From contig JAHBWH010000055.1 in NCBI GenBank assembly GCA_019637115.1, forward strand, positions 1 to 46,277: DNA of 46,277 bases, in the 5' to 3' direction. Shown piece by piece: positions 1,965-45,633 of the stretch. Origin of the DNA: Myxococcales bacterium (GTDB lineage: Bacteria; Myxococcota_A; Polyangia; Polyangiales; Houyiibacteriaceae). The position numbers and the translations under genes are program-made. Within the stretch, counting starts at the first letter, position 1. Every line of letters begins with the position of its first letter. The notes beneath the pieces were generated by a model that saw nothing but the letters and a program-made list of their open reading frames with translations, ran no database searches and was not told the origin of the DNA.

Positions 1965-2351
1965 TCAGAACTGGTCCGAGGCCGCGAACTCCTGCTCGAT
2001 CTTGTCGGCGGTGCTCGCGACCACGTGCAGCGGGAGCTCGAACTCGTTCATGTCCATCGTCGCGAGCTGGACGCTGTAGCGGACGACGTAGATGTCGTTG
2101 TCGAGGGCGAGCGCGCCGACCGCGAACTGGTAGTTCTTCTGGAGCGCGACCTCGGGCGACATCTGGCTCGCCTTGCAAGCGGCGCTCGCGAAGTCGCACC
2201 ACTCGACGTTCAGCGCTTCGAAGCGCGAGACGATGACGGCCTGCAGGCGCCGGTTGTCGTACTCGAAGACGAGCTTGAAGCTGTTCTCCTCGTCGTTGGC
2301 CAGCTTGTACTTCGATCGCGCGTACTCTTGGACTTCGGCCCACGTAGGCAT
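1965..2351 (-). CDS. small YbjN / type III chaperone-like protein
   Basis: This 128-residue acidic protein has no signal peptide. It begins MPTWAEVQEYARSKYKLAND and contains alternating strand segments (FKLVFEYDNRRLQAVIVSRF, NYQFAVGALALDNDIYVVRY) followed by a C-terminal helix (VVASTADKIEQEFAA). The strand-strand-helix layout and length resemble YbjN or CesT-like proteins, which bind partner polypeptides. That assignment is inferred from pattern only. The start is the only in-frame ATG that gives this length. The upstream region to 2612 holds no gene but does contain the palindromic element at 2441-2575, which may separate this gene from an older promoter arrangement. Confidence 0.6.
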   Translation of the reverse strand: MPTWAEVQEYARSKYKLANDEENSFKLVFEYDNRRLQAVIVSRFEALNVEWCDFASAACKASQMSPEVALQKNYQFAVGALALDNDIYVVRYSVQLATMDMNEFELPLHVVASTADKIEQEFAASDQF

Positions 2352-2440: not shown

Positions 2441-2575
2441 GTGCCCGCAACCCGAAGTTCGTTCCGGCGTTCCGCGGCCATGGGCGGATCTCGCAGGCGT
2501 TAGGCAGGCCGAAGCCCATTCGAGGCCGTCGGCGAGCGTGGCAAACGACCTCCACGCCGATCATCCACGGCAACC
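2441..2575 (-). repeat. dispersed palindromic element, copy 1 (one end lost)
   Basis: The left arm reads GTGCCCGCAACCCGAAGTTC and continues GTTCCGG. It matches the terminal inverted repeat of the second copy at 45446-45608 with one difference over its first 25 bases. The outer segment from about 2540 (GGCAAACGACCTCC onward) to 2575 also matches copy 2 in reverse orientation. The matching right-hand terminal repeat is absent after 2575. The core at 2495-2538 lies in the same window orientation as the core of copy 2 although the arms are inverted. No ORF is supported inside, so this is a non-autonomous MITE- or REP-like element. Strand is arbitrary. Confidence 0.75.
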
Positions 2576-2612: not shown

Positions 2613-4280
2613 TCAGAAGCGGGTGGGCTCGGTGAAGGTCGTGTCCTCCACGAGGTATTGCACGCTCCGTCCGTCGCGGTTGAGCACGCAGTCGCCGCTC
2701 GCCAGGAGCCGCCGGAGGGCGAGCTGGGCGGTCCGGACGCTCACGTCGAGCTCTTGGGCCGCCTGCCGAGTGGTGATGCCGCCATGCCGCGCAATCACCC
2801 GCAAGAGGCGATCCTCGACGTGCTCGACGCAGCGCGGGTCGGGCAGCACGAGCACGCCCTTGGGCTCGAGGCGCAGCCGCCCCCCTTGGCGGTGGACCTC
2901 GGCCGCCTCCTCGAGGCGCGCCCGCATGCGGTGCACGAGCACGTCGAGGATGCCCGCGTGGAGCGTGGGCACGAACTCGAACTCGTACGCGCGCTCGAAG
3001 AGCTCGCTGTCGACGAGGCCCGCGCCGCCCGCGAGCGCGAGCGCCGCGATCGCCGTGTCCACGCGCCCGCGGCGGAGGCGCGTGCGCTCGACCCGGAGGA
3101 TCTCCGCCTCGCCCCCGAGCAACGGGATCGCGACGCGCAGCACCCGGCGCGGGGCCGCACCTGGCCGGCAGACGACGCTGGCGATCGTGGAGTCGGCGGG
3201 GCCATCGGGAGGCCCGACGATGCCGTGGAGCCCCGCGGGGGTGTCGTCGACGTCGCCGCGCGCCCACGGCCGCACCACCTCGGGCGCGTCCTCGCTCACC
3301 AAGAAAGGGTCCAAGGCCGCCGCGAGCGCGGTCGCTTCGGTCGCGAGGTCGGCGAAGCCCGCGACCTCGCGAAGGACCGCGGCGCGGGCGTCGGCGGTCG
3401 CCTCGTGATCGCCGGCGCTGGCCGCGTTGAGCCAACGCAAGAGCGCGCGCGCGCCGCGCGTCGAGGGCTGGTCGGGGGCGTCCGCGAGCGCGAGGTCGAC
3501 CTCGAGCGTCCGCGCGTCCGAGACCGGGCGCCAACCCGCGAGCGCGCGCTCCCACCGCAGCCACCCTTGCCAAGCCCCCGGCGCCATCGGCCCGATGGAG
3601 CTCGCGATCCGGGTCGCGAGGTGGGGGCGGCCGCCACGACGGCGGACCCGCGCGAGCACGAGGCTCGCCAAGATGCGCTCCGCGCGGAGGCCCTCGGTGC
3701 GCGCCATGCGCGAGGCCCGACGAGTGAGCGAGGTGGCCGTCTCGACGTCCCCGCTCGTGAGCGCCGCCATCGCGCGCAGGAGCGTCGCGTCGATCACGAG
3801 CGAGGCGTCCTGCGCCTGCGATCCCTCGGCGTAGAGGGCCTTGCCCTCGGCCTCGAGGTCGTCGACCTCGCCTCGCATCAGCTTCGACCACGACTCGACG
3901 CGGCGCAGCGTCCGCGCGGCGTCCGGCTGGCCCGAGGCCGCGAGGGCGCGGTGCACGTCGCGGATGGCGTCGAGCCGCTCGACGTCCCACGCGACGAGGG
4001 CGGCGCGCGCGGCGTGGCCACACCCGATCACGGCTGGGAGCGCGCAGCCTGGCCCGGCGCCCACGAAGCGCGCGAGCCGCGCGGGCACGGTGCTCGCGTC
4101 AGCCCGATGCGCGGCGGCGGCAGGCTCGACGAGCCAGCGCGCGGTCTCGAGCGCCAGCTTCCACGCGTCGGCCTCGTCGCCAGTCGCGTCGTCGAGAAAC
4201 GACAGGAGGTTGTCGAGGCCCTTGAGCGCGCCGCGACAAACGGCCTCGTGAAGCTCGGATCCGATCTGTGCCACGTCCAT
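2613..4280 (-). CDS. helical-repeat protein with C-terminal winged-helix DNA-binding domain
   Basis: I chose the ATG at 4280 (MDVAQIGSELHEAV, 555 residues) over an upstream extension of 52 Arg/Pro-rich residues that looks non-coding. Residues 1 to about 310 are Ala/Leu-rich amphipathic helices resembling TPR-type or MalT-like arrays. A middle part follows (PGAAPRRVLRVAIPLLGGEAEILRV). The last 75 residues (LLRVIARHGGITTRQAAQELDVSVRTAQLALRRLLASG) form a winged helix-turn-helix. There is no signal peptide, so it is probably a cytoplasmic transcriptional regulator. It is divergent from the Ser/Thr kinase at 4474, with 193 bp between the starts, which suggests a possible functional pair. Target genes are unknown. 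Confidence 0.65.
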   Translation of the reverse strand: MDVAQIGSELHEAVCRGALKGLDNLLSFLDDATGDEADAWKLALETARWLVEPAAAAHRADASTVPARLARFVGAGPGCALPAVIGCGHAARAALVAWDVERLDAIRDVHRALAASGQPDAARTLRRVESWSKLMRGEVDDLEAEGKALYAEGSQAQDASLVIDATLLRAMAALTSGDVETATSLTRRASRMARTEGLRAERILASLVLARVRRRGGRPHLATRIASSIGPMAPGAWQGWLRWERALAGWRPVSDARTLEVDLALADAPDQPSTRGARALLRWLNAASAGDHEATADARAAVLREVAGFADLATEATALAAALDPFLVSEDAPEVVRPWARGDVDDTPAGLHGIVGPPDGPADSTIASVVCRPGAAPRRVLRVAIPLLGGEAEILRVERTRLRRGRVDTAIAALALAGGAGLVDSELFERAYEFEFVPTLHAGILDVLVHRMRARLEEAAEVHRQGGRLRLEPKGVLVLPDPRCVEHVEDRLLRVIARHGGITTRQAAQELDVSVRTAQLALRRLLASGDCVLNRDGRSVQYLVEDTTFTEPTRF

Positions 4281-4460
4281 CGTCGATCGCCTCGGCCCTG
4301 CGCGTGGGCACCGCCCGTTCGCCGGAGGGTACGACAAACGGAGCTCCGCTGGGGATCCCCGGTGCGCGCCCGAGACAACTCGGCGCTCTCGCAGCGCCCC
4401 CGGCACCCTGACCAGGATTTCACGATATCGCGGCACTTCCGGGGGACGTCATCCGACTGT

Positions 4461-44025: not shown

Positions 44026-45633
44026 TCAGCGAACGACGCGTAGGATGTGGACGCGATCGGGCGCGTTCGACCGCGGCTCGGCGACGACGAGCCAGGCCTC
44101 GCGCTCCCCCCCGTGCTCGCCGAGGGACCATGCGTCTCCCTCGGTCCTCAGCACGACGCGCTCGCCGACTCGAGCTTCGCTGCCTCCGCGGTCTCGTCGA
44201 AACGTGAAGACGTCGAGGGGCGCCGCCGCGCGGCCACTCCGATCGCTGGAGGTCCTGTCCCGGCCCAGGCTCACCTGGCCTCCGTCCGCGATCACGACGA
44301 ACGGTCCCTCGGCGGTTTCTTCGGCGATGAGGGCGCCATCCGTGGACCGGACGCGCTCGATGCGCGAGAAGTCGCTCAGTCCGTCCCCTGGCTCGGAGAC
44401 CCGCAGGTGTTCGGGGACGAGCAACGTGTGCACGTCGATGCCCCGCCGATGCCAGATGGCTTGGCCGCTCGGGTCGAGCAGCCACGCCTCGTGCGCACCC
44501 TGTACGAACACGCCGACCGGGCTGGTGACGGCACCTGTCATCGTCGCAGGGAAGCGCTCGGCGGCGCCCTCGAACGAGCGCTCGAACCGGAGGCGTCCGG
44601 TCGAGCAGGTGAAGGCACGAAGCCGCGCAGAGGGCCGCTCGTAGCGAACGGTCCAGCACAGATCCTCCTCGGGATGAACCCCGACGTCGAACGCGCCGCA
44701 GGTCCCGCACGAGACCTGTCCAGAGCGCCAGCGCTCCGCGCCCTGTGCGTCGCGCGCGATGAGCGTTGGCTCCTCCATCGTGCCCGCGAGGTAGAACGAC
44801 AGGCCGCGCGCGCCCCCCACGACGCGGAACGGGGATTCGCAGTGCGATGACGCACGGCCGCGGCTCCCGTCCAGGCGGTGGTACCGGTGGGTGCGCTGGC
44901 CGAAGAGCGGCGCGCCGAGCGGCGCCCCGTCCTCACAAGAGATCGGCTCGAACGCACAGTCCGTCCGCAGCGCACACGCCCCGTGGTTGCGCCAGACGAA
45001 ACGCCAGCCGATCGGGGCGGGGCGATCGGCGACTCGCTCTCCGGAGGGCGTGTCGACGGTGACGAAGCGCTGCTGCGTCTGGACCAGCACGCGCGTGCCT
45101 TCGAGCGCATGAATGAGCGCCAGCTCCGCGTTCGGTACGTCCTCGTCCGTCGAGCGGGCGTGCTCGACCAGCGACACCCGCCACCGCTCGCCGCGGCGCT
45201 CGAGGTCGTACCCCACGAGCGCGTCACCGCCGGGGCTCACGTAGAGCAGCAGCTCGCCGCGGAGGGTCGCGTCGCGGGCCTCGAAGACGATGTGATCGTC
45301 TTCCGGCGCTGGAGCCTGCGCGCTCGAGCTCTCCGCACCCGACCGGTCCTGCTCGGTGACGACCCGCGGTTCGGACGCGGGCGGCGAGGGGCGCACGCAC
45401 GCCGCCGCCGCGAGCCAGCACGCCAACGCGAGTCGGCCGTAGCCCGTGCCCCCAGCCCGAAGCTCGTTCCAGGTTGTCGTGGATGATCGGCGTGGAGGTC
45501 GTTTGCCGCGCAGGCGTTGGACAGGCCGAAGGCTATTCGAGCAGGTCGGCGAGCGAGATCCGCGCCCTTGGCCGCGGATACCCGGAACGAACTTCGGGTT
45601 GGGGGCACCAGCTCGCGATCTACGAAGCTCCAT
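44026..45633 (-). CDS. beta-propeller-like lipoprotein whose 5' end carries an inserted repeat element
   Basis: The hydrophobic LALACWLAAAAC is a lipobox-type signal ending. The 450-residue mature part after a Pro/Ala linker has repeated YDLERRGERWRVS-like and QGAERWRSGQV-like blades, consistent with a PQQ/WD-type propeller. Cys pairs (CALRTDCAFEPISC, CGTCG) suggest export. No ATG or GTG with a normal leader lies just before the signal. The open frame instead runs through the element at 45446-45608 to an ATG at 45633 (MELRRSRAGAPNPKF). The native start may have been removed or displaced by the insertion. Translation from 45633 would place about 63 extra residues before the signal. Confidence 0.65.
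   Translation of the reverse strand: MELRRSRAGAPNPKFVPGIRGQGRGSRSPTCSNSLRPVQRLRGKRPPRRSSTTTWNELRAGGTGYGRLALACWLAAAACVRPSPPASEPRVVTEQDRSGAESSSAQAPAPEDDHIVFEARDATLRGELLLYVSPGGDALVGYDLERRGERWRVSLVEHARSTDEDVPNAELALIHALEGTRVLVQTQQRFVTVDTPSGERVADRPAPIGWRFVWRNHGACALRTDCAFEPISCEDGAPLGAPLFGQRTHRYHRLDGSRGRASSHCESPFRVVGGARGLSFYLAGTMEEPTLIARDAQGAERWRSGQVSCGTCGAFDVGVHPEEDLCWTVRYERPSARLRAFTCSTGRLRFERSFEGAAERFPATMTGAVTSPVGVFVQGAHEAWLLDPSGQAIWHRRGIDVHTLLVPEHLRVSEPGDGLSDFSRIERVRSTDGALIAEETAEGPFVVIADGGQVSLGRDRTSSDRSGRAAAPLDVFTFRRDRGGSEARVGERVVLRTEGDAWSLGEHGGEREAWLVVAEPRSNAPDRVHILRVVR
45446..45608 (+). repeat. dispersed palindromic element, copy 2 (complete)
   Basis: The 163-bp element is bounded by inverted ends: left GTGCCCCCAGCCCGAAGCTC, right arm as the reverse complement of GTGCCCCCAACCCGAAGTTC, with two mismatches over 25 bases. 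Its arms match copy 1 (2441-2575) in reverse orientation. The 44-bp core 45512-45555 matches the copy 1 core in the same orientation. No transposase is encoded. No clear target-site duplication is seen. Confidence 0.85.

Follow-up and report, generated by a model that had tools for sequence, protein, structure and literature searches.

In the window, the 46,277-nt stretch of DNA analyzed here, one of two copies of a ~163-bp palindromic MITE-like repeat (copy A, the other being copy B; Table 1) carries a core that is inverted relative to both of its own arms. The inversion in copy A is precise and conservative, and comparison with the rest of the family indicates a derived, unique and one-off state. 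The core loop of copy A was probably inverted once, through a two-step replication template switch at this palindromic hairpin repeat. An original prediction had located both copies and their cores at these positions and had proposed that the core had flipped within the element. This is borne out, with copy A as the flipped copy and copy B in the normal orientation of the family, although the two are not equivalent, as copy B is a full copy with both terminal repeats and copy A lacks one.

Table 1. Features of the two repeat copies and of the genes that flank copy A, in window positions.
Feature	Position	Strand	Remarks
Conserved 128-aa gene	1965-2351	-	flanks copy A
Copy A of the ~163-bp palindromic MITE-like repeat	2441-2575	-	decayed, inverted core; between two minus-strand genes
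Retained terminal inverted repeat of copy A	2441-2465	+	GTGCCCGCAACCCGAAGTTCGTTCC, 1 mismatch to family terminus
Right arm of copy A	2441-2491	-	normal relation to left arm
CGC, one inversion breakpoint	2492-2494	.	3-bp inverted microhomology; four equal-scoring breakpoint pairs
Core segment of copy A	2495-2535	+	inverted relative to both own arms; minimal extent, 41 bp
GCG, other inversion breakpoint	2536-2538	.	3-bp inverted microhomology
Left arm of copy A	2540-2567	-	identical to family consensus; terminal repeat beyond it absent
607-aa gene	2613-4436	-	weak HTH-domain match; flanks copy A
Copy B	45446-45608	+	full-length, both terminal repeats, core in canonical orientation; forms a single hairpin
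Left arm of copy B	45480-45507	+	
Core of copy B	45512-45555	+	apical loop region of hairpin, canonical orientation
Right arm and right terminal inverted repeat of copy B	45556-45608	+	

This MITE-like element is palindromic and non-coding and forms one hairpin, with a conserved 44-bp core as the apical loop (consensus positions 64-101). The terminal inverted repeats are ~29 bp long, and pairing continues along the entire element. As single-stranded DNA, copy B folds over its whole length into one hairpin (z = -5.6), and a consensus-like sequence forms a hairpin over the whole element with z = -10.8. Among 26 ungapped full-length copies from four genomes, standard pairs fill 96% of the pair cells of the stem and compensatory types occur at 20 pairs, chiefly as a result of terminal repeats that vary from genus to genus in a symmetrical manner; these counts come from an ungapped stack of related sequences and lend support without amounting to a formal test. 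The core itself is not self-palindromic, with 28% identity to its own reverse complement and a local alignment score of 14 against it, versus 86 against itself. At up to three mismatches, the 8.88-Mb genome (434 contigs) contains 41 arm sites and 33 core sites.

ERIC and other palindromic intergenic repeats, like bacterial MITEs, are non-coding sequences of ~100-200 bp with terminal inverted repeats that can fold into hairpins and occur as dozens of dispersed copies. The present repeat resembles them in its general features: it is short (~163 bp per copy), has no coding capacity, bears terminal inverted repeats, folds into one hairpin and is present in dozens of dispersed copies. Unlike these elements, its interior is conserved between genera and its terminal repeats vary in concert. 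The termini differ from genus to genus yet remain symmetrical (GTGCCCCCAACCC, GTACACCCGCCCG, GTACCTCTGCCCG and AGGCCCACGGTCC; L139, L140, L141, L148, L151 and L160 versus L001 of the same genome as the window), and a conserved interior with divergent termini is the opposite of the usual MITE pattern. The same interior core is also found inside elements with quite different terminal repeats, GTACACCCGCCTGG and GTACCTCCCCACAGG (L127 on C388, L137 on C257 and L134 on C275), some of which directly adjoin partial copies of the main family. Within the genome, the cores fall into two subfamilies, GCGCCGACGAAGGACAGG and GCGCAGGCGTTGGACAGG (for example, L112 and L113 versus L001). The former is probably ancestral, because it is also present in relatives; the latter is confined to this genome and includes the flipped copy A. 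Other copies are partial and comprise one terminal repeat, the right arm and a portion of the core (L166, L168, L169, L170, L171 and L180), and in several of them CGAATGGGC of the core, or a similar sequence, seems to lead into the beginning of a downstream reading frame, as though the start codon came from the remnant. Searching the literature for a comparable named repeat in Myxococcota returned nothing relevant, and Rfam matched only one tRNA in the window.

The extent of the inversion was determined by inverting every possible segment of the consensus and aligning each result to copy A. The alignment score rises from 123 for the uninverted consensus to 220 for the best inversion, in which consensus positions 64-110 (or equivalent nested choices) are inverted and the length of the core is unchanged. 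Four breakpoint pairs tie at this score and thus define a 3-bp inverted microhomology, CGC/GCG, in agreement with the short inverted repeats that had been predicted at the breakpoints. The inverted segment accordingly spans 41-47 bp, from a minimum of 2495-2535 to anywhere up to 2492-2538. Taken alone, the core of copy A reaches a score of 62 when aligned to the inverted consensus, compared with 11 for the canonical direction, and the best of 5000 shuffles reaches 27; these scores and shuffles rule out chance resemblance or a self-palindromic core as the cause of the apparent flip. In the hairpin, the left breakpoint (consensus 63-66) is at the stem top; its counterpart on the right (consensus 107-110) lies 5-8 nt down the opposite stem strand. 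An exact symmetrical flip of the loop at the top of the stem was rejected, as the breakpoints are ~4 nt off the axis. No inserted or lost bases, and hence no end-joining footprint, are seen at either core junction. Inverted homology at the exact breakpoints is limited to 3 bp, and longer inverted recombination sites are not found there. On the side beyond position 2567, where copy A has no terminal repeat, the alignment begins at consensus position 25. Copy A also carries private substitutions: GGCGTTAGGCAGG in its core is unique among the 33 core matches, and its arms have changed privately as well.

A tabulation of core orientation, which the original prediction had put forward as a check, was made by scoring the core beside each arm in ~68 copies told apart by their flanks. 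The core is canonical in 46 copies of the genome and inverted in one, copy A; in relatives, all 21 scored copies are canonical and none is inverted, with one further chance match of undetermined orientation. An independent count by sequence-distinct copies gives 52 canonical cores versus one inverted, plus one chance match. The inverted junction, GTCGGCGAGCGNGGCAAACGACC, has an exact match only at window positions 2528-2550 across 34 family genomes, where its remaining matches have 3 mismatches each and are chance-like. These genome comparisons indicate that the inverted state is derived, unique and a one-off rather than a switch, because it stands at 46:1 within the genome and 21:0 in relatives and its junction is unique in 34 genomes. 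The remark that no named element behaves in this manner is thus correct in the sense that the flip is a single mutation of one copy; it does not describe the behavior of an element.

Copy A is a decaying insertion between genes. At its locus the element is absent from a congener (G001) and from a more distant genome (G010), and because both keep the flanking genes, this comparison indicates that copy A was inserted within this lineage. Several copies lie in 4-bp C..G targets, mostly CTAG, some of them repeated on both sides. The same 4 bp (CTAG, CCAG or CTCG) occurs on both sides of 8 of 41 copies; CTAG is itself palindromic, so that two non-palindromic cases are the informative ones. A transposase flanked by the terminal inverted repeats of the element was not found, and a scan of a congener with its own terminal inverted repeat gave 15 places, with no autonomous element among the part of these that was read. 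RAYT/Y1-like genes with an HHHT motif and their own GGCGGATCCGCC repeats upstream were noted (L201 at C422:31300-32255, L202, L222, L225 and L226); the fragment of such a gene that was compared with Pfam had no match. Two contigs join a terminal inverted repeat of the element to a RAYT-like gene region, and on C422 this repeat is ~570 bp upstream of the RAYT/Y1-like gene, with an intervening stretch that is common to C201. No link to the RAYT-like gene is claimed, because the repeat unit of the gene itself starts at a distance of ~390 bp and its other copies lack a terminal repeat at this place.

For the inversion itself, a replication step and its timing relative to insertion are what we infer from these features. 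The loop probably inverted after insertion at the present site. The nascent strand would copy one arm, jump at the CGC/GCG microhomology onto the complementary strand, copy the core in the wrong direction and then return, again at this 3-bp homology, on the opposite side of the core. Template switching is favored because the change is a length-neutral reverse complement of a hairpin spacer and both switch points show short inverted homology; the reverse complement is exact, the site is a hairpin and the inverted state is the derived one. Against it stand the microhomology of only 3 bp, the position of the inversion ~4 nt off the hairpin axis and the lack of the same inversion in a second copy, so that the event has no phylogenetic replication. 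Since the breakpoints are displaced from the axis, the event is described as a microhomology switch near the apex.

A different rearrangement is seen in a copy on contig C404 (G000:C404:21690-21845, L123), which contains a perfect 28-bp inverted repeat around a spacer of 9 nt, derived from core and right arm. This fold-back is unlike the window inversion and is consistent with what template switching would produce at the inner GATCCGCG/CGCGGAT hairpin. Given this copy, the pattern is consistent with a repeat family that may be prone to fold-back events.

Small inversions in plastids are the loops of stem-loops that flip between flanking inverted repeats, which are usually longer and perfect, and such inversions are often recurrent in both directions. 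Copy A differs in showing a single event. Small inversions of chloroplast genomes are the subject of a survey (PMC6824564). Inversion of a loop or spacer through template switching of DNA polymerase belongs to the documented quasipalindrome-associated mutations. Spacer inversions attributed to two-hop intermolecular template switching have been described in yeast; all of those reported had arms that exceed 9 bp, and the inverted stretches were far shorter, appearing as 2-5 bp substitutions (PMC8604942). Loop inversion is also reported for rRNA genes, including bacterial ones, mostly with 4-nt loops and with loops of up to 7-8 nt (PMC8794818). As in the yeast and rRNA cases, the segment between inverted sequences in copy A has become its own reverse complement with its length kept, at a hairpin-forming sequence; unlike them, the flip is longer (41-47 bp), the homology at the exact breakpoints is 3 bp and the inversion is off the hairpin axis.

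Because of this greater length, shorter microhomology and off-axis position, a break-and-rejoin origin is kept as a rival, although we regard it as unlikely. Here a nuclease, such as an SbcCD-like or a Holliday-junction enzyme, would cut the extruded hairpin or cruciform close to its apex, and the apical piece would be religated in reverse by microhomology-mediated or non-homologous end joining. The 3-bp microhomology and the position at the hairpin apex fit this equally well, and the missing terminal repeat of copy A is compatible with a break in the element; two double-strand cuts and a retained free piece of ~45 bp would, however, be required, and the two core junctions show neither insertion nor loss of bases. 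The original prediction had also considered recombination, template switching and an active inversion mechanism. Of these, template switching at a hairpin or cruciform accounts best for the observations. A site-specific recombinase that reversibly inverts the core would explain a precise and conservative event, but this is very unlikely and was rejected on the orientation counts and the missing recombination sites: the core is inverted in 1 of 47 copies of the genome and in 0 of 21 in relatives, the breakpoints share 3 bp, the arms beside the core are not long inverted recombination sites, and copy A is decayed and situated between genes. It is also highly improbable that the apical loop flips repeatedly in living cells, for example in mobilization hairpin intermediates prone to template switching, with the inverted copy as a snapshot.

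Two further readings concern other copies of the repeat as a source of the inverted core. Recombination or gene conversion between two oppositely oriented copies could have reversed the core, and the family offers numerous dispersed copies that bear long terminal inverted repeats. Such conversion would run through the homologous arms and replace them, whereas both arms of copy A keep their relation and only its interior is inverted, at 3-bp homologies; no donor whose core matches the private variants of copy A is present among the 33 core matches, and this origin is barely credible. The original prediction would have been abandoned if all other copies had one orientation and one of the two window copies were an assembly artifact. 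The other scored copies do share one orientation, but an assembly or sequencing artifact in this repeat-rich draft genome is very unlikely. Several copies are at contig ends, so the repeat does disturb assembly; the element is nonetheless short enough for single reads to span, and the private substitutions in the core and arms of copy A show that it is not a chimera of other copies.

The flip most likely arose when a palindromic repeat underwent a known kind of mutation, with no new element or switch involved. Copy A is a clean natural loop inversion, several times longer than those described in yeast and in rRNA genes, and its dozens of unflipped sister copies reveal the ancestral state. Repeat families of this type could serve to measure the rate at which template switching flips the tips of hairpins.
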